Shown: positions 1,236 to 8,557 of the stretch, piece by piece | How positions within the stretch are numbered: position 1 is the stretch's first letter | How the letters are laid out: each line of letters begins with the position of its first letter | NCBI GenBank assembly: GCA_903904885.1 | Contig: CAIVED010000004.1 | Location: 1-63,332 of the forward strand | DNA length: 63,332 nucleotides | Reading direction: 5' to 3' | Source: an uncultured archaeon | Lineage (GTDB): Archaea; Nanobdellota; Nanobdellia; Woesearchaeales; CAIVOO01 | Made by a program: the position numbers and the translations under genes | The notes under the pieces: generated by a model | What the model was told of the DNA's origin: nothing | What the model saw: only the letters and a program-made list of their open reading frames with translations | Databases searched by the model: none

Positions 1236-1964
1236 ATGATTCAAAATGCAAAATGTTCTTGGGATAGCTTGGGAATCCAGATAGATCAGATGTGGTTTTC
1301 TTTGACAGATGACTGCAACATGAGATGTTCTTATTGTTTTGTACAGAAAGGCCAAAATTACATGGACTTGAAGGTTATGGATCGAGCACTGGATGTGCTT
1401 TTTATGAGCAAAGGCAAGGAAAAAAAGATTATTTTATTTGGAGGCGAGCCTTTAATTAATTTTAAATTAGTTAAAACTTTTACGGAGATTGCCAAAAAAA
1501 AGGCTGGTTTGTTCAACAAAAAAATAAAATTCGGTGTCGGTACTAATTGCCTTAAAATGGATCAGGAAATAATAAAATTTCTCAAAAATGAAGATTTTCA
1601 AATATCTGTTACCTTGGACGGGAAGAGTGAGACGCATAACAGATTCAGGAAAAGCAAGGATGGTAAGCCAACTCATAACGGGATTATTAAAAACATTAGA
1701 AAAATACAGACAACTATAAATTCTTCAAAGTTATGCTGTTTGTTGGGTGTGCATAATAGTGAGATTAGAAATTTATTTTCAAATTGCAATTATATATTCA
1801 AAAACACCGGCATAAAGAGCATTAATATAGAACCAGTACAAACAAATCATGCATGGACTAAGAATGAGCTTACATATTTTAAATTAAATTTGCTAAAAAT
1901 ATTTAATTTTATATTGTCTGAATCAAATAAAAATAATTTTTTTTTTCTTAAACTCTTTGAGTAG
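1236..1964 (+). CDS. Radical SAM protein, 5' part of a frameshifted gene
   Basis: The first 242 residues of a radical SAM enzyme. The 4Fe-4S/SAM motif CNMRCSYC gives Cys27, Cys31 and Cys34, and a GGEP motif at residues 69-72 is the usual SAM-binding second strand. The frame stops at TAG 1962-1964, just after a run of ten T at 1937-1946. Reading one base fewer in that run continues into the frame at 1957-2289 without a stop, giving one protein of roughly 350 residues. The gene is therefore broken, or is read by slippage, or the T-run length is a sequencing error. The N terminus resembles that of the intact radical SAM/SPASM protein at 3712, so peptide or protein maturation is the likely class. 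The substrate is unknown. Confidence 0.75.
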   Translation: MIQNAKCSWDSLGIQIDQMWFSLTDDCNMRCSYCFVQKGQNYMDLKVMDRALDVLFMSKGKEKKIILFGGEPLINFKLVKTFTEIAKKKAGLFNKKIKFGVGTNCLKMDQEIIKFLKNEDFQISVTLDGKSETHNRFRKSKDGKPTHNGIIKNIRKIQTTINSSKLCCLLGVHNSEIRNLFSNCNYIFKNTGIKSINIEPVQTNHAWTKNELTYFKLNLLKIFNFILSESNKNNFFFLKLFE

Positions 1965-2289
1965 GTCCCTGGAAAAAAAGATAAACAAAATAAATGCTGT
2001 TTCTATATTAAGAAAGAACATAGTCATTTTTCCAGAAGGCAAGGTTACTATTAATCCATTTCTTTATTATATTGATGATAAATACATAATTGGTGATGTT
2101 TTTTCTGGTATAGACACAAAAAATGCTAAAATACCCAAGCATATTAGCAAAAAAATTATAGATTTTGATGTGATTAATTTTAGAAATCACATTTGTGATA
2201 AAATGGCAGATTACATCATAGCAAGGTCCAAAAAGAACCTAAGGCTCAGAAGATATATTGATGAGGCTTTAAATAGAATCTTTGAGTGA
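1957..2289 (+). CDS. 3' part of the frameshifted radical SAM gene
   Basis: This frame is joined to the preceding radical SAM frame by a shift at the T10 run (1937-1946). The apparent TTG start at 1957 is not a convincing start, and the same frame is already open through the T-run. The encoded part has beta-like stretches (NIVIFPEGKVTINPFLYYIDDKYIIGDV), as in a C-terminal segment where SPASM proteins read 'dG.iyPC...iGnv', but the usual SPASM cysteines are missing: only one Cys is seen, near residue 83. It ends 3 bp before the ATG of the HemN-like gene (its TGA overlaps a GTG in that frame). It is best treated as the tail of the same gene, not an independent protein. Confidence 0.55.
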   Translation: MSRSLEKKINKINAVSILRKNIVIFPEGKVTINPFLYYIDDKYIIGDVFSGIDTKNAKIPKHISKKIIDFDVINFRNHICDKMADYIIARSKKNLRLRRYIDEALNRIFE

Positions 2290-2291
2290 AT

Positions 2292-3707
2292 ATGAAGAGA
2301 CATCTAAAAAATTATGGAAAGGGACCTATTAAATGCAGAGACTACTTGTTCAAGAAATTAACAGAAAAAATATCTGAAAAAGATTTTACTGGGTATACTA
2401 TCCAATACCCGCCCCTTCTGACATGGGACAAGTTGGAGAATAAAATTTGCAAAGAATGGCAAAAAATAAGCCCTGAAGATAAGCTAGGAATTTATATACA
2501 CATACCATTTTGTGAACAAAAATGCATTTTTTGCAGGTATTATTCCAAGAAAGAAAAGAACAAAAAAGTAATTGAATCATATTTGAGATTTTTGGAAAAA
2601 GAAATAATGATGTACAGAAGATATCTGGCAAATAAACAGATACATTCCTTATATATTGGAGGAGGCACACCAACAATATTCACTCTACAACCGCTAGCCA
2701 AGCTTCTAAGCATTCTCAAATCAAACTTTTTGTTTTCAGAAGATGCGCAAATGTGTATAGAAGTTACTCCGCAATCACTGGATCTTAAAAAACTTTTGTT
2801 GCTGAAAAGATTTGGAATTAATCGCTTAACTATTGGCGTGCAATCATTGAATAAAAATGTCTTAAAAGAAGTTGGCAGATTGCAAAACCCAAAAGAAGCA
2901 ATTAAATTATTGGGTATTGCAAAAGGACTTGGATTCCAAACTGTAAATATAGACCTGATGGCAGGTTTACCAAAAGAAACATTGAGCTCTTTTAAGCGTG
3001 GCCTTGATAAAACACTCAAAAAAAATCCCGATATGGTTCATATACATCCATTTTATCCAATAAAATATACTGAATTTATGAAGTCAGGTTGTTATTTATC
3101 TAAATGCGAAATGGATTTAAGAACAAAAATGTGTGAGTTGGCAGATAAAACCTTGAGATCCAGAGGATTTTGTCCAAAAAAATTTGATGCTTATGGAAAA
3201 AAAGATGATAGCAGAAATATTCAGCTATGTGATGCAATAGAAAATATTAGCTCATACATTGGCTTTGGTGCAGGCGCAGTTTCTCATATAAGAGGCAGTT
3301 TGAGATATGTTAATCATAATGATGTATGTAAATACATATCTTGTATCAAGAAAAAAGTTCCTCCAATCATGAAAGGTATAAATCTAACCAAGAGAGACGA
3401 AATGATTTATTATCTAACAGCATGTTTAAGATATGGATATGTTTTGAAATCTGAGTTTAGAAGGATTTTTGGCAAGGAAGTAACCTCTGTTTTTTCAAAA
3501 GAATTAGCGTATCTGAAAAAAAGAGGAATAGTACATGAAACTGATGAAAAAATAGTCATTAAAGTAAAAAATATTGGTGAATATCTGGTTTTTTCAAAAT
3601 ATTTCTATGACGATGAAATCATAGAAATTTGTAAGCAACATATGGATAAATTAAATATCCCCGAAAGGGAAATAACATTAGATGAAACAAGATATATGTG
3701 TTTATAG
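2292..3707 (+). CDS. HemN/HemW-like radical SAM protein
   Basis: A 471-residue radical SAM enzyme of the coproporphyrinogen III dehydrogenase-like (HemN/HemW) family. Counted from the GTG two codons upstream, the motif CEQKCIFC supplies the cluster cysteines at about 76, 80 and 83, preceded by YIHIPF as in HemN. GGGTPT (about 125-130) and IGVQSLN (about 192) are the family's SAM-binding strands, and a C-terminal winged-helix-like HemN_C region is plausible. I chose ATG 2292 over GTG 2286 because the previous frame ends at 2289. True HemN makes protoporphyrinogen, but relatives act as methyltransferases or cyclopropanases in peptide and natural-product pathways. The setting among other radical SAM genes favours a tailoring role over heme synthesis. 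Confidence 0.8.
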   Translation: MKRHLKNYGKGPIKCRDYLFKKLTEKISEKDFTGYTIQYPPLLTWDKLENKICKEWQKISPEDKLGIYIHIPFCEQKCIFCRYYSKKEKNKKVIESYLRFLEKEIMMYRRYLANKQIHSLYIGGGTPTIFTLQPLAKLLSILKSNFLFSEDAQMCIEVTPQSLDLKKLLLLKRFGINRLTIGVQSLNKNVLKEVGRLQNPKEAIKLLGIAKGLGFQTVNIDLMAGLPKETLSSFKRGLDKTLKKNPDMVHIHPFYPIKYTEFMKSGCYLSKCEMDLRTKMCELADKTLRSRGFCPKKFDAYGKKDDSRNIQLCDAIENISSYIGFGAGAVSHIRGSLRYVNHNDVCKYISCIKKKVPPIMKGINLTKRDEMIYYLTACLRYGYVLKSEFRRIFGKEVTSVFSKELAYLKKRGIVHETDEKIVIKVKNIGEYLVFSKYFYDDEIIEICKQHMDKLNIPEREITLDETRYMCL

Positions 3708-3711
3708 AAAA

Positions 3712-4704
3712 ATGAAAAACAAAAAAGAGCTATTGATTCTTGCACTTTTTATCACGGATAACTGTAATATGCGTTGCAGTTACTGTTTTGTAAAGAAGAG
3801 TAAGAAGAGTATGTCACTAGAGCTGGCCAAAAAAAGCATAGATATGGCATTGGGACTGGGGTATGAAAATGTCATAATAACTTTTTTGGGTGGTGAACCC
3901 CTTTTAGAATATGAAAAAATAAAAAAAATCATAAATTATTCAAAAGAAAGAAATGTTAAACGGTATAATGTAGCTACAAATGGTTTATTGCTCAATAAAA
4001 GTAAGCTTGAATATTTCTGTAAAAGCAATGTAGCAGTACAGTTCAGCTTTGATGGAACGGAGGAAAGCCAAAATATGTGTAGGGTAAAAAAGGATGCAAA
4101 AGGCTCGTATGCTTTACTAAAGGACAAGTTAGAACTTTTTAGCAAATATGCAGACAAAATGCACTTTGAGATAAGGATGACTTTTTCCCCTAAAACAGTT
4201 CCCCACTTGTGCGAATCGATAAACTTTTTACATGCATCGGGATTTACAAATTCACGCATTAACTTAATGCCTGTTGTCTCATGTGTTAAATGGGAAGAGG
4301 ATGATTTTATCTCCTTAAGAGAACAGATACTCAAGATAAAAAACCTGCTCAAAGTAAAAAAAGTTAACCTCTACCTAAATGAATGCCTAGGCGAATGTTC
4401 CAATGTGTCAAAACTCAGTTTAGAACAAATTGTGCCATGCAATGCCGGCACCAGAGTACTTTGTGTGGATAAAAAAGGAGATGCATATCCTTGCTTTGTA
4501 TATGCAGGAATTTCAGACAAAAAGAAAAAAAAGTATTTGCTTGGCAATATTGAAACCAAGTTCAAGCTTGAACGGGGTAAGCAGTTTGCAGAGAAATATA
4601 AAGCAGAGTATCTTAGTTGCCCTACATGGAATTATTTTCTGGGGGACAGGGCTCTCGAAACATACAAGAAAGTTTTTAACCTGTGGAAGGAACTTAAATG
4701 TTAA
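3712..4704 (+). CDS. Radical SAM/SPASM-like maturase
   Basis: 330 residues from ATG 3712, five bases after the previous stop (an in-frame ATG at 3682 would overlap the upstream gene by 26 bp). The radical SAM motif CNMRCSYC gives Cys18, Cys22 and Cys25, with GGEP at 60-63. The C-terminal third has SPASM-type cysteines: a NECLGEC segment, then C-N-A-G-T-R-V-L-C followed by a KGDAYPC strand, and a last SCPTW near the end, consistent with one or two auxiliary Fe-S clusters. SPASM proteins mostly modify ribosomally made peptides or enzymes. No obvious precursor lies next to it on this strand; the nearest candidate is the minus-strand G9-W-C protein at 4969-5361. Confidence 0.82.
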   Translation: MKNKKELLILALFITDNCNMRCSYCFVKKSKKSMSLELAKKSIDMALGLGYENVIITFLGGEPLLEYEKIKKIINYSKERNVKRYNVATNGLLLNKSKLEYFCKSNVAVQFSFDGTEESQNMCRVKKDAKGSYALLKDKLELFSKYADKMHFEIRMTFSPKTVPHLCESINFLHASGFTNSRINLMPVVSCVKWEEDDFISLREQILKIKNLLKVKKVNLYLNECLGECSNVSKLSLEQIVPCNAGTRVLCVDKKGDAYPCFVYAGISDKKKKKYLLGNIETKFKLERGKQFAEKYKAEYLSCPTWNYFLGDRALETYKKVFNLWKELKC

Positions 4705-4707
4705 ACA

Positions 4708-4924
4708 TGGCTGAAGAAAAAGTAAGAATGTGCAAGTTCCTTATGCCTGCAGTTTACATAACCAATTCATGTTACATGAATTGCATCCATTGTTACATGG
4801 AGAAGGGGGGAGGATGAGTTGCTTGGCATGGAATTATATTGTCAATGAGAATACAAAAAAGCCAGCTCACGTTTACAAATACACGTATCAATCTATGGCG
4901 GTCAAATTGGGAGGAAGTTGTTAA
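4708..4924 (+). pseudogene. Remnant of a fourth radical SAM gene with the middle deleted
   Basis: From ATG 4708 a 36-codon frame encodes a start ending in the radical SAM motif CYMNCIHC, then stops (TGA) at a G-rich junction near 4813. In the next frame, directly after it, come residues SCLAWNYIVNE...VYKYTYQ, which match by eye the SPASM end of the neighbouring gene (SCPTWNYFLGD...TYKKVF). The start and end of a radical SAM/SPASM gene are thus joined with nearly all of the middle missing. It follows the intact gene by only 3 bp. It cannot encode a working radical SAM barrel. Confidence 0.7.
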
Positions 4925-4968: not shown

Positions 4969-5361
4969 CTAACACCACCCGCCTCCTCCGCCTCCTCCGC
5001 CCCCATCGTCATGATAGGAGCTAGCATGCTGTCCGTGCGTTTCAACGCAATTGGAATGGCTCATTATAAGTCTTCCAAACACGTTTTTAACATTCAGGTT
5101 GTTGCTATGGGCAGCATTGGTGTATCCTGTACCAGGCCATATGTGATTAAGGGTGACCGGGTCAGCTTTTGCATCAATGCCTGGGCAGTCTCCGTTATAC
5201 GTAATGGTATCTGTTGCAATAAGCCCCGCCTTTGCCGGTTTAGCAGACAGGGCAATGGCCCCAAGGACAATTCCCGCCTTCAAAATTGATGCCTTAGAAA
5301 TCTTGCCTTCTTCCTTGAGCAGAAAATCCCCTATCTTATGTTTCAAATCAAATGTTTTCAT
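4969..5361 (-). CDS. Precursor-like protein with G9-W-C terminus (HxsA-like candidate)
   Basis: 130 residues from ATG 5361 (a TTG six codons upstream is less likely). The N terminus has a leader-like segment, GDFLLKEEGKISKASILKAG (residues 11-30), followed by a hydrophobic stretch to residue 40. From memory this EEGKISK-plus-hydrophobic style is shared with His-Xaa-Ser (HxsA-type) precursors. The rest is rich in His, Asn and Ser (His73, 85, 102, 109, 112, 117; one exact H-x-S at 112-114), has Cys59, Cys105 and Cys130, and ends in nine glycines then Trp-Cys. It lies 46 bp after the HxsB-like maturase and has its own TATA box. It is probably a secreted or membrane-anchored substrate of that maturase. 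Which residues are modified is unknown. Confidence 0.72.
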   Translation of the reverse strand: MKTFDLKHKIGDFLLKEEGKISKASILKAGIVLGAIALSAKPAKAGLIATDTITYNGDCPGIDAKADPVTLNHIWPGTGYTNAAHSNNLNVKNVFGRLIMSHSNCVETHGQHASSYHDDGGGGGGGGGWC

Positions 5362-5416
5362 CACTTTAAAATAAATCAAACTACCTTTTTATATCTTTTT
5401 AGTCACTTTAAAGTGA
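5361..5416 (-). promoter_or_regulatory. Promoter of the precursor with two TTTAAAGTGA sites
   Basis: On the minus strand a TATA-like AGATATAAAAAGG (about 5384-5396) lies roughly 25-30 bp before ATG 5361, so the precursor can be transcribed alone with almost no leader. It is bracketed by two copies of TTTAAAGTGA, at 5403-5412 and 5361-5370, 42 bp apart. The upstream copy is half of a perfect 14-bp palindrome, TCACTTTAAAGTGA (5403-5416), that overlaps the stop codon of the maturase. The spacing is about four helix turns, as for operator pairs. The downstream copy overlaps the start codon and may double as a GTGAT ribosome contact. Confidence 0.5.
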
Positions 5417-6841
5417 AATCCAGCTTTTTACTATTTTCTGGAATTCACTGTCCTGGATTTTTTCAAAGATATAATTAAACTGGGCATCATGAACCTTGCA
5501 TCTGAAATGCTCGCTAACTGATGGGATTAAGCTGTTTGTTTCTGAAAATCCTATAACCGGGCATATGCCGCAATAGGGTTTCCAGACGCACTCGTCACAG
5601 CTGGTGTTGCTGATTACTGAGGAAGATATAATCATGCAGCTCTTGTCGCAGCCTACTACTTCCGGATATTCCTGGCTTACATTTCCCACTTTGAATATGT
5701 CAAAATCCCTGCCCTCATCACAGCTGTAGATTGAGCCGTCATAATCATAGGCCAATTGGCTCAGGCAGGCGCCGCAGGGGCTTCTCATGTCAGTGTAGCC
5801 GGCGTCCTGCTGCCCAAGGATTTTTGAAAGGATTATAACCATTGTCCTTTCTCTTATCCGAACTCCCTTTTTGTTCAGCTCTATTATGTAATCAGCGCAT
5901 TTTTTCCAGAAATCTATGAACTCTTCAGGCGAATAGCCTATCTGCCCGAAATTTTTAGAGGAAAAACCGAGGAATTTCATGTCTCTTACAGACATATTCA
6001 CAAACCCCTGCTTAACATACTCGTCAACAATCTCCCTTGGCTTTTTCAGCGAATTCTTTGTTATTGTTAATAATGCCTCTATTCTCCAGTTCTTTTTTTG
6101 TTTGTTGCACTCTTCCCTTATTTTTTTAATCCAGAATGAAACATTTTCATGGCAGTTGAATTTATTGTCCTCGCAGATTCTGTTGGCATTATGAATGTCC
6201 GCAGGGCCGTCAAGCGAAGTGCAGATTGAAACGTCATTCTTCATCAAAAAATCCAGTTTTTCATCATCCATCGGCCTGAGATTTGTGACCACTGAAAATT
6301 TCAAATTCTTCTTTATTTTCTTGTTTTTTTCTTTTGCATAGCCAACAATAAACTGCAGCACTTCAAAATTTAGCAGCGTTTCACCGCCCTGGAATTCAAT
6401 CATGATGCTCTTTGAAGGGCTCTGGAATATGAAATCAACGGTTTTTTTTGCTGTTTTTTTTGTCATGTCAAACTCTTTGGCATCAGAGTTCTTCACGCTG
6501 GCATGGCAGTATACGCATTTATGGTCGCATCTTTTTGTCAGAATCACAATATGCAATGAAACTCCCTGGGCAAGAAAACTGAGCCGTTCCTTGTAATAAT
6601 TCTCAATAATCCCCTCATTTTTTAATGTAATAATTATTCCCTTTTCCTCCAGAAGATTGAACAGCTTGGACTCCCGGTCCAATTCCCCGTTTTCAAGCAG
6701 GTCAAATTCGGCGTCATTCAAAATAACCCACTGCCCGTGCTCTGCCACAACAAGGTTCTGGCAGTTTATTTTTTTTGATGTGTAATTAAACGGAACATAG
6801 CCCTTATGCAGTATTTCTTCTTTGGTTATTGAAAACGCCAT
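5408..6841 (-). CDS. Radical SAM/SPASM maturase, HxsB-like
   Basis: 477 residues. The N terminus (about 10-75) is a PqqD-like or HxsB-type front region. The radical SAM motif CDHKCVYC places Cys105, Cys109 and Cys112, with GGET at 152-155. The SPASM region is complete: CGAC (356-359), then a YDYDGSIYSCDEGR strand with Cys374, Cys398 and Cys402, then CDECVWKPYCGIC (415-427) and Cys448. The YDYDG...DEGR and C..C-x5-C-x2-C signatures match what I know of HxsB, the maturase of His-Xaa-Ser systems, and two HxsD-like genes precede it in the operon. Its ATG shares one base with the preceding stop, so translation is coupled. The probable substrate is the G9-W-C protein just downstream. Confidence 0.85.
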   Translation of the reverse strand: MAFSITKEEILHKGYVPFNYTSKKINCQNLVVAEHGQWVILNDAEFDLLENGELDRESKLFNLLEEKGIIITLKNEGIIENYYKERLSFLAQGVSLHIVILTKRCDHKCVYCHASVKNSDAKEFDMTKKTAKKTVDFIFQSPSKSIMIEFQGGETLLNFEVLQFIVGYAKEKNKKIKKNLKFSVVTNLRPMDDEKLDFLMKNDVSICTSLDGPADIHNANRICEDNKFNCHENVSFWIKKIREECNKQKKNWRIEALLTITKNSLKKPREIVDEYVKQGFVNMSVRDMKFLGFSSKNFGQIGYSPEEFIDFWKKCADYIIELNKKGVRIRERTMVIILSKILGQQDAGYTDMRSPCGACLSQLAYDYDGSIYSCDEGRDFDIFKVGNVSQEYPEVVGCDKSCMIISSSVISNTSCDECVWKPYCGICPVIGFSETNSLIPSVSEHFRCKVHDAQFNYIFEKIQDSEFQKIVKSWISL

Positions 6842-7068
6842 TATACAATCCCCTTGTTTTTCATCAGCTTGAGGACATAGTTCAAGAATTCATAGCCGCA
6901 TTTTTCGGCATCAGCGTTTTTTTTTATTTTCACCAAAAAATATTCCCCCTCATCCAGTTCAGCATCAGCCTCTTTTTTAAGCTCTGCAAATGCCTCGATT
7001 ACAGATTTTTTGTCATAGAGTGATGAGTTCAGCTTAAGAGAAATGAAATTATTGTTTTTTGATATCAT
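6841..7068 (-). CDS. Small HxsD-like protein (75 aa)
   Basis: 75 residues, acidic and soluble. It starts with a beta strand (NFISLKLNSSLYDKKSVIEAFAELKKEA), the same 'strand, then x-x-Y, then helix' start seen in the larger HxsD-like neighbour and in PqqD/HxsD-type small partners, then a second strand (GEYFLVKIKK) and a terminal helix. Its start lies 20 bp inside the upstream gene and its stop overlaps the HxsB-like ATG by one base. It is probably a short paralogue of the 147-aa protein, acting as a peptide-binding or chaperone partner of the maturase. The assignment is by pattern and position only. Confidence 0.65.
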   Translation of the reverse strand: MISKNNNFISLKLNSSLYDKKSVIEAFAELKKEADAELDEGEYFLVKIKKNADAEKCGYEFLNYVLKLMKNKGIV

Positions 7069-7492
7069 TTTTGTCTTTGTTCGTCTCTTCCCATGGCACT
7101 GCTATTTTTTCAGGATCCTGTTCATTGTTATTTTTTTCTTTTTCAGTGTCATCCACAGAAAGGGTGCCGTTGGTGAAAAGTGCCCTGTAAAGAATAAGAT
7201 TTCTTACGGTTTCATTCTCCTTCATCTTCTGCTTGTAGACCTGATAGCTCAATAGCCTGTTGCAGAACCGCCTTCCCAGCTCTTCAAGATTTTTCCCTTT
7301 TTCCATTGGCTTGAGTTCTGCAATTATCTCAATCTCCTCATCGCCATCAAGCAGAACATATGCATCTCTTGTAAACGCATGGGCAGCGCCGTAAATAACG
7401 CTCAATGCGTAAATTTTTGGATTAATGCTTACCCTTACAACGCCCTCTTTTTTGTCAATCTCAAGATTTCCTATATTGTCTGTTTCTTCCAT
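7049..7492 (-). CDS. HxsD-like protein (147 aa)
   Basis: Residues 17-110 show the pattern I associate with His-Xaa-Ser system protein HxsD: VRVSINPKIYALSVIYGAAHAFTRDAYVLLDGD as separate short motifs (strand, N-P-K-I-Y, amphipathic helix, strand), then an acidic strand, then a helix with FCNRLLSYQVYKQKMKEN followed by V-R-N-L-I-L-Y-R-A, like the LLNDYxLRE-type ending of that family. The last 40 residues are a charged, probably disordered tail. The ATG directly follows the stop of the prepilin peptidase gene. The molecular role of HxsD is unknown; presenting the precursor to the radical SAM enzyme is a reasonable guess. Confidence 0.7.
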   Translation of the reverse strand: MEETDNIGNLEIDKKEGVVRVSINPKIYALSVIYGAAHAFTRDAYVLLDGDEEIEIIAELKPMEKGKNLEELGRRFCNRLLSYQVYKQKMKENETVRNLILYRALFTNGTLSVDDTEKEKNNNEQDPEKIAVPWEETNKDKNDIKKQ

Positions 7493-8557
7493 TTAAAACA
7501 ACCCCCATAACATCTGAAAAATATAGCTTAACAGATATATAAGATTTGCTATATTCCCAAAGATAAGTGTTATTGCAACGCCTGCAAACATGGCCGGTGC
7601 GAAAGGCGCTGTTTCTGCCACGGGGACTGTTTTTATTCTCTTCTTTTTGCAGAATGCCCTTATTTTTTTAACTTCTTCGGCAGTCAGGCCTTCGGCGCAG
7701 GGCGTGCTAAAGCCCTTTTCCTTTTTGCTTTCCTTATTGCACACAATATCCCCTTCCCTAAGCATTAAAACCGGGATATTTTTAACCGTGTTTTCAGATA
7801 CAATCTTATACACGGTTCTTAGCAAAAAGGAATACAAAACCGCGCTTATCAATATGCCAATGATAAAATCAAGGTTCAAAACGCCGTTAAAGCCAAAAAT
7901 AATTCTTATGGCAATTAGCGCCAGGTATATGTGCAGCGGCCTTATTTTTTTAATCCTGAGCAAGGAAAGTGTTTTTGTTATGGCCAGGTCAGCAACAGCA
8001 TAAACCGCGGCATACAGGACAAATGAATAAAAAATGCTGCCTGTGGCGAAGCTTCCCCCAATCAGCCGGGCAAACCAGCTTACCGCAAATATTGATATCA
8101 AAAGCTCCGGAAATTTTTTCAGGCTGCCAGCGAGCGCTTTTTTTATTGTTTTTGGCGGTATGATGAATATATTTTTTGCAATCAGGTAAATGAAAAACAG
8201 TACAACCACATTCACAAACATGTCAAAGGCCGGGAAAAAGCTGATGAAGGGCGCGGGATAAACCGCAGCGGGGATAAGCGCAGAGTAGGCAATGAAAAGC
8301 TTCCCGTCACCGGCGCTCCAGAACTTGAAGTTCCACAGCAGGAATGAGAAAGCTATTGCGATTGCAAAATTTATCAGGCTCAGATATACCTCATTAAGCG
8401 TTATATTTTTGCCAAGGAAAAGAAAAAGGTAGGCTGCAAAAGAAAATGCAACCGCCCCAAGCACCCATTTGTTCCGTATTTTTCCGGATTTTATGTCTTC
8501 ATAGGAGGTTATAACGCCCAGAAAAATGATTGCTGGAATGAAGTAGTAGGCAAGCAT
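7493..8557 (-). CDS. Prepilin peptidase-like A24 aspartyl protease
   Basis: 354 residues with about 8-9 membrane helices. The first helix is followed by YEDIKSGKIRNKW, carrying the first catalytic Asp, and a second motif, SAGDGKLF (near residue 82), carries the second Asp in the A24 'GD' position. Such enzymes cut class III signal peptides of archaeal pilins and archaellins after a (K/R)(G/A/S) site. A soluble insert with two Cys lies near residues 275-310 before the last helices. It is the first gene of the operon with the HxsD-like and HxsB-like genes and is divergent from the 40-kb surface block, so it could process that block's pilin-like proteins, the G9-W-C precursor, or both. A near-leaderless start is likely (TATA-like GGTTTAAATTC about 26 bp upstream). 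Confidence 0.82.
   Translation of the reverse strand: MLAYYFIPAIIFLGVITSYEDIKSGKIRNKWVLGAVAFSFAAYLFLFLGKNITLNEVYLSLINFAIAIAFSFLLWNFKFWSAGDGKLFIAYSALIPAAVYPAPFISFFPAFDMFVNVVVLFFIYLIAKNIFIIPPKTIKKALAGSLKKFPELLISIFAVSWFARLIGGSFATGSIFYSFVLYAAVYAVADLAITKTLSLLRIKKIRPLHIYLALIAIRIIFGFNGVLNLDFIIGILISAVLYSFLLRTVYKIVSENTVKNIPVLMLREGDIVCNKESKKEKGFSTPCAEGLTAEEVKKIRAFCKKKRIKTVPVAETAPFAPAMFAGVAITLIFGNIANLIYLLSYIFQMLWGLF

Follow-up and report, generated by a model that had tools for sequence, protein, structure and literature searches.

A dedicated A24 peptidase in HXS peptide-modification loci of archaea and Omnitrophota, and its probable role in cutting the precursor leader

The window analysed here is a 63,332-nucleotide stretch (contig CAIVED010000004.1) from the genome of an uncultured archaeon, whose 16S rRNA scores 1363 bits against the archaeal model, the best in its clan. 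Its size of 1.3 Mb and the many-family order would fit a DPANN lineage. On the minus strand at 4969-8557 it carries a five-gene operon of the His-Xaa-Ser (HXS) peptide-modification type that encodes, from 5′ to 3′, an A24-type peptidase, two HxsD-type proteins (HxsD1 and HxsD2), the radical S-adenosylmethionine (SAM) maturase HxsB and a precursor peptide. This operon probably represents a second architectural type of HXS system, in which a dedicated A24 peptidase (HXS-A24) cuts the precursor leader after a conserved Gly. The gene order and the spacings given in the initial annotation are exact on the minus strand (HXS-A24/HxsD1 0 bp, HxsD1/HxsD2 -20 bp, HxsD2/HxsB -1 bp), the precursor gene follows HxsB after 46 bp, and all five genes are open with none interrupted (Table 1).

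HXS-A24 and HxsB go together in the phylum of the host. Among 371 archaeal genomes of this phylum, 35 carry HxsB (32 above the TIGR03978 cut-off plus three with a clear or partial HxsB), and the HXS-A24 profile, built from alignment A1, matched 40 genomes at 118-411 bits, with the next matches reaching at most 51 bits. The peptidase was present in 32 of the 35 HxsB genomes and in 8 of the 336 others (p = 3e-35, a value which, like those below, counts related genomes as independent). These final counts are based on TIGR03978, alignment A1 and alignment A2, which replaced jackhmmer labels that had drifted. Moreover, HXS-A24 lies upstream of HxsD1 on the same strand in approximately 20 of the 35 archaeal HxsB loci, and the complete five-gene order of the window is found in 14. 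At least 17 families, belonging to more than one taxonomic order, share this gene order, and therefore the operon arrangement goes beyond chance. A search of other archaea for the order protease-HxsD-HxsB-Gly-Cys had been proposed: the order recurs widely as far as the precursor, whilst the Gly-Trp-Cys end of that precursor is local.

The precursors share a leader with the consensus E-[ED]-G-x-[IV]-S-K, followed by a hydrophobic stretch, and E17, G19 and K23 are invariant in 20 aligned precursors. The EEGKISK-type leader noted at the outset is thus a common trait of the family. Position -1 is Gly, with Ala in three precursors (that of L058 and both of G158). This alignment is the independent support for Gly at -1, as the leader counts and the table of residues around the site were partly derived from a motif search allowing only Gly or Ala at -1 and a fixed Lys at +4 and are not independent there; in that table two rows (L116 and L142) were taken from a wrong position. 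When the precursor profile was run against all 371 genomes, leader-bearing proteins were found in 32. All 32 encode HXS-A24 and 26 encode HxsB, so the leader follows the peptidase more closely than it follows the maturase. Where HxsB is absent, the leader and HXS-A24 were found together in 6 of 6 genomes (p = 1.5e-11), the solid cases being G158, G174 and G104.

The system had initially been described as archaeal. A contig scan with the HxsB query, however, also reached two Omnitrophota bacteria, and these bacteria carry the peptidase, the maturase and the leader, so that the system is not purely archaeal. In a sample of 285 Omnitrophota genomes, HxsB (E <1e-40) was identified in 26 and A24 profile matches in 29; the peptidase accompanies all 26 HxsB genomes and only 3 of the 259 others (p = 7e-34). 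For 21 of these 26 genomes HxsB and A24 share a contig, usually with 0.5 to 17 kb between them. The precursors have the same leader, with +1 mostly Phe where archaea have Lys or Arg. For comparison with canonical HXS we used ten plasmid loci from Aeromonas, Leptospira, cyanobacteria, Bacteroidota and alpha-, beta- and gammaproteobacteria. In all ten hxsB adjoins hxsC, annotated as such in nine and represented in Calothrix by an unnamed gene of matching size and place. No A24 was found within 5-8 kb on either side of these loci (best profile score 7 bits), and the leader motif was absent wherever a precursor was read, the N-termini of canonical HxsA being ordinary signal-like peptides. In the HxsB tree a branch with support 100 sets the canonical sequences apart.

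The peptidase of the window is borderline for PF01478 (cut-off 26.5), scoring 27.6 bits in a six-frame search and 25.0 bits by hmmscan, and most of its relatives lie above the cut-off. The two catalytic Asp of the A24 family, one before I-x-N and one in a GD motif, are present as the predicted Asp21 and Asp84 (AGD); across 26 relatives D84 is invariant and D21 at least 90% conserved. The genome of the window also encodes a housekeeping A24 on another contig (C12), and such a copy stands alongside HXS-A24 in nearly every HxsB genome. Housekeeping copies mostly score 45-68 bits against PF01478, compared with 18-41 for the locus copies, and in the tree they form a clade of their own (100/100, branch length 2.1) that leaves the HXS copies outside; a single divergent member of the latter (L079) attaches at its base. 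HXS-A24 is therefore a dedicated second copy and a family separate from the housekeeping A24. No NCBIfam model matches the window peptidase, and a scan of viral contigs with the A24 profile found no relative.

From these observations we infer a two-step maturation. HxsB, with the two HxsD-type proteins, would modify the C-terminal core of the ribosomal precursor in the cytoplasm. HXS-A24 would then free the peptide of its N-terminal recognition segment, with a cut behind the Gly of E-[ED]-G-x-[IV]-S-K (Gly19 in the window). The cut would fall ahead of the hydrophobic stretch, on its cytoplasmic side, as in the processing of prepilins and archaellins by EppA, FlaK and PibD. Archaeal A24 substrates tolerate Gly or Ala at -1 (processing sites, PMC4371748 Table 1), and the Ala of the L058 and G158 precursors fits this tolerance. 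The HXS leader has an acidic -2 and a basic or aromatic +1 residue, whereas the pilin-like proteins of the neighbouring cluster have basic residues at -2, and this difference would account for a separate enzyme.

Several points weigh against this mechanism, in addition to the counting of related genomes as independent. Three HxsB genomes have no detected A24 and nine no detected leader, some of them at contig ends. In Omnitrophota the peptidase gene is frequently several kb away and on the opposite strand. Among the genomes with a leader and no HxsB, G183 (which has a divergent HxsB) and G213 and G286 (assembly fragments) are weaker cases. The putative cut site itself is atypical: -2 is mostly Glu or Asp and +1 is Lys, Arg, Thr or Asn, or Phe in the case of Omnitrophota, where K/R-G and Gln would be usual. 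A conserved Lys at +4, and often another at +9, delays the hydrophobic stretch, so that the Gly or Ala at -1 of a class III signal is present but the hydrophobic helix directly after the cut is not, and the leader is not a textbook class III signal. An AlphaFold model of the peptidase, from an alignment of two sequences, was too poor for use (pLDDT 41). Lastly, the hydrophobic stretch of many precursors has an A-x-A-like end, a possible site for type I signal peptidase.

This last point leads to the alternative that survives best, namely that the HXS locus has a dedicated peptidase whose substrate is not this leader, the leader being removed by signal peptidase I at the A-x-A-like end (in the window after PAKA and before G). 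Canonical HxsA, with its signal-like peptides and no A24, speaks for it. However, the leader was never found without HXS-A24 in the 371 genomes, even where HxsB is absent, and the loci showed no further small protein in common that could be the substrate. We consider this alternative unlikely, and cleavage of the leader by HXS-A24 the better account.

A further alternative concerns the window alone. Its precursor ends in HDDGGGGGGGGGWC, that is, nine Gly, Trp and Cys, and is a single copy in the genome by the profile of relatives; an alternative start is the TTG at 5379. The initial annotation had remarked on few H-x-S triplets, and we count one. Most relatives, by contrast, are rich in H-x-S: their cores are mostly HGS or HSS runs ending in SY, SW or C, and their (HGS)n precursors mostly end in Tyr or Trp. 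The Gly-Trp-Cys end is therefore a peculiarity of this genome and not a trait of the system, and against HxsA3 (NF038309) only the leader region of the window precursor aligns, at 16 bits. One could thus read the window system as decaying, with the H-x-S core lost and the tail a product of drift, whilst the systems of relatives work; the single remaining triplet and single precursor copy would agree with this. The five open genes, the HxsB score and the intact leader speak against decay, as do the Gly- and Cys-rich cores that also stand behind the leader in G183, G174 and G104, and we judge it improbable, more so than removal by signal peptidase I.

Least credible is that the peptidase stands beside the HXS genes by chance and has its substrates in the adjacent divergent cluster, among the pilin-like and large secreted proteins encoded there, since, although that cluster starts approximately 80 bp from the A24 gene and has many class III-like N-termini (KKGQGTAALL, KRAQISIFII, KKSQIGQVFI), the peptidase is upstream of HxsD on the same strand in some 20 other archaeal loci, co-occurs with HxsB in two phyla and is not the only A24 of the genome, which has a normal one on contig C12. 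The cluster itself occupies 8639-44282 (+) and encodes very large secreted proteins (2353 and 2466 amino acids) and many small proteins with pilin-like, class III N-termini.

The remaining identities agree with an HXS system that differs from the canonical one. HxsB scores 437 bits for TIGR03978 (cut-off 370), with the next best family at 134 bits, and by sequence its nearest entry in the PDB is the radical SAM protein 5wgg. The HxsB and HxsD assignments of the initial annotation hold in that no other family fits better, although the two small proteins fare differently: HxsD2 passes NF038315 (HxsD_rel; 46.3 vs 41 bits), whereas HxsD1 falls just short of TIGR03976 (44.3 vs 50 bits, E 1.8e-11). 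The locus thus has both the HxsB and the HxsD-type partner of an HXS system. HxsC (TIGR03977) was over cut-off in none of the 35 HxsB genomes of the phylum, that of the window included, which bears out the single maturase first noticed; therefore, and because the window precursor is without the repeats, we do not file the window system as canonical HXS. In some relatives a second radical SAM gene is nearest to HxsC4 (NF038332).

A model of HxsD1 (pLDDT 71) has the order beta-beta-alpha-beta-beta-alpha, and a fold search with it gave weak matches, all with Z below 8 (best 7.2 for an RPB11 subunit and 6.9 for a type III secretion chaperone). Among the matches listed there was no RRE, the PqqD-like recognition element of ribosomally synthesised and post-translationally modified peptides (RiPPs), which says nothing for or against such a fold in HxsD. 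A sequence search of the PDB found no relative of HxsD or A24, and a paper on RREs (PMC12710340) does not mention HxsD. Two genomes that lack HxsB and have HXS-A24 encode an HxsD domain fused ahead of the HXS leader: in G104 at L189:5064-5651 (-), and in G174 at L190:4396-6342 (-), where the leader is succeeded by a Gly-rich stretch and then by three Hint (intein-like) domains. Because the domain is fused to the leader, HxsD may handle the substrate, as a putative substrate-binding partner of HxsB.

Other proteins carry the leader in unusual settings. In G183 a protein at L188:3838-4548 (-) combines the HXS leader, a Gly/Cys-rich stretch (GGGGCACACAGSCSGGGGGSCGC) and a Hint-like domain starting at Cys, and is possibly a self-cleaving precursor. 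In G158 an operon at L079:1701-8130 (-) combines an HXS-type A24 with an (HSTHGT)n precursor, which is His-x-Thr and not His-x-Ser. HxsB is missing, and the three radical SAM genes of the operon are of other types, one of them weakly matching a B12-binding domain; another precursor is encoded away from it, at L186:4733-5230 (+).

Table 1. Features of the HXS operon of the window.
Feature	Position	Strand	Basis
HXS-A24, A24-type membrane aspartyl peptidase, 354 aa, first operon gene	7493..8557	-	PF01478 match, Asp conservation, tree
HxsD1, 147 aa	7049..7492	-	TIGR03976 44.3 bits; homologues in nearly all relatives
HxsD2, HxsD-like small protein, 75 aa	6841..7068	-	NF038315 46.3 bits
HxsB radical SAM/SPASM maturase, 477 aa, with CxxxCxxC	5408..6841	-	TIGR03978 437 bits
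Precursor peptide, 130 aa from ATG 5361	4969..5361	-	93.6 bits (E 9.9e-27) against the profile of relatives
Leader residues 1-19, MKTFDLKHKIGDFLLKEEG; proposed cut between Gly19 and KISKAS	5305..5361	-	conservation; predicted cleavage
Nine Gly codons, then Trp-Cys (4972-4977)	4978..5004	-	position of relatives' (HGS)n core

On its other side the operon faces a convergent cluster at 1236-4704 (+), in which two radical SAM genes are PapB-like, another gene is HemN-like and no clear precursor was seen. The first PapB-like gene (1236-1964) is apparently cut short, with another frame continuing at 1957-2289. A small open reading frame at 4730-4924 (+) contains SCLAWNY, which resembles SCPTWNY near the end of the upstream radical SAM gene (3682-4704), and may be a partial duplication of that end. 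Long arrays of radical SAM genes were also observed in other genomes (G124:C2, G369:C46, G333:C12, G268:C393 and G329:C116), some with frames of 600-1100 amino acids and several radical SAM matches; in G124 and G369 the array shares its contig with the HXS locus.

The proteases that usually take off RiPP leaders are transporter-linked, subtilisin-like or metallo-proteases, and we know of no RiPP leader removed by a prepilin peptidase. Our literature search found no paper joining prepilin peptidase, radical SAM and RiPP, and on HXS chemistry it returned passing mentions only. The remark that no description of an A24 protease inside such an operon was known agrees with this, as neither a model nor a paper covering the peptidase came up in our searches. 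The precursor and partner types HxsA3, HxsA4, HxsD_rel and HxsC4 are already modelled by NCBIfam. If leader cleavage by HXS-A24 is correct, the orphan HXS family gains a testable maturation step and cut site, and in DPANN-like archaea and Omnitrophota peptide modification would be linked to the route by which pili are exported. Peptidase and leader would also serve as a marker for more precursors, including the Gly-rich and Hint-fused ones that H-x-S searches miss. A further idea, which we offer tentatively and hold to be rather doubtful, is that radical-SAM-modified peptides travel the pilin route, with the prepilin-like leader cut by A24, the product either held in place by its hydrophobic helix or assembled into a filament, and the tail, His- or Gly-rich and modified, displayed at the cell surface.

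In comparison with known systems, canonical HXS is hxsA/hxsA2-hxsD-hxsB-hxsC (TIGR03976-TIGR03979), as set out where PMC9062424 cites Haft and Basu. The window system shares with it an HxsB over cut-off, an HxsD-type partner and, in most relatives, H-x-S-rich precursors, but it lacks HxsC and has in addition a second HxsD-like protein, its dedicated A24 and a precursor extended at the N-terminus, with E-[ED]-G-x-[IV]-S-K. Within NCBIfam, the precursors of relatives resemble HxsA3 (NF038309) and HxsA4 (NF038313), leader included, and that of L137 passes HxsA4 (74 vs 55), whereas the window precursor reaches only its 16 bits for HxsA3 and HxsD2 passes HxsD_rel. FlaK and PibD, which process archaellins and archaeal prepilins in general, share with HXS-A24 the peptidase family, the two conserved Asp and the nature of a membrane protein, but HXS-A24 stands apart from the housekeeping A24 clade of the same genomes. 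A precedent is EppA of methanococci, a dedicated second A24 with its own site specificity, for pilins with Gln at +1, that leaves archaellins to FlaK (PMC4371748, PMC4390842). Both are second A24 enzymes besides a general one, each with a substrate set of its own in which -1 is Gly or Ala and +5 often Glu; unlike those of EppA, however, the putative substrates of HXS-A24 belong to a radical SAM system as its precursors, and have acidic residues at -2/-3 and a basic or aromatic residue at +1.

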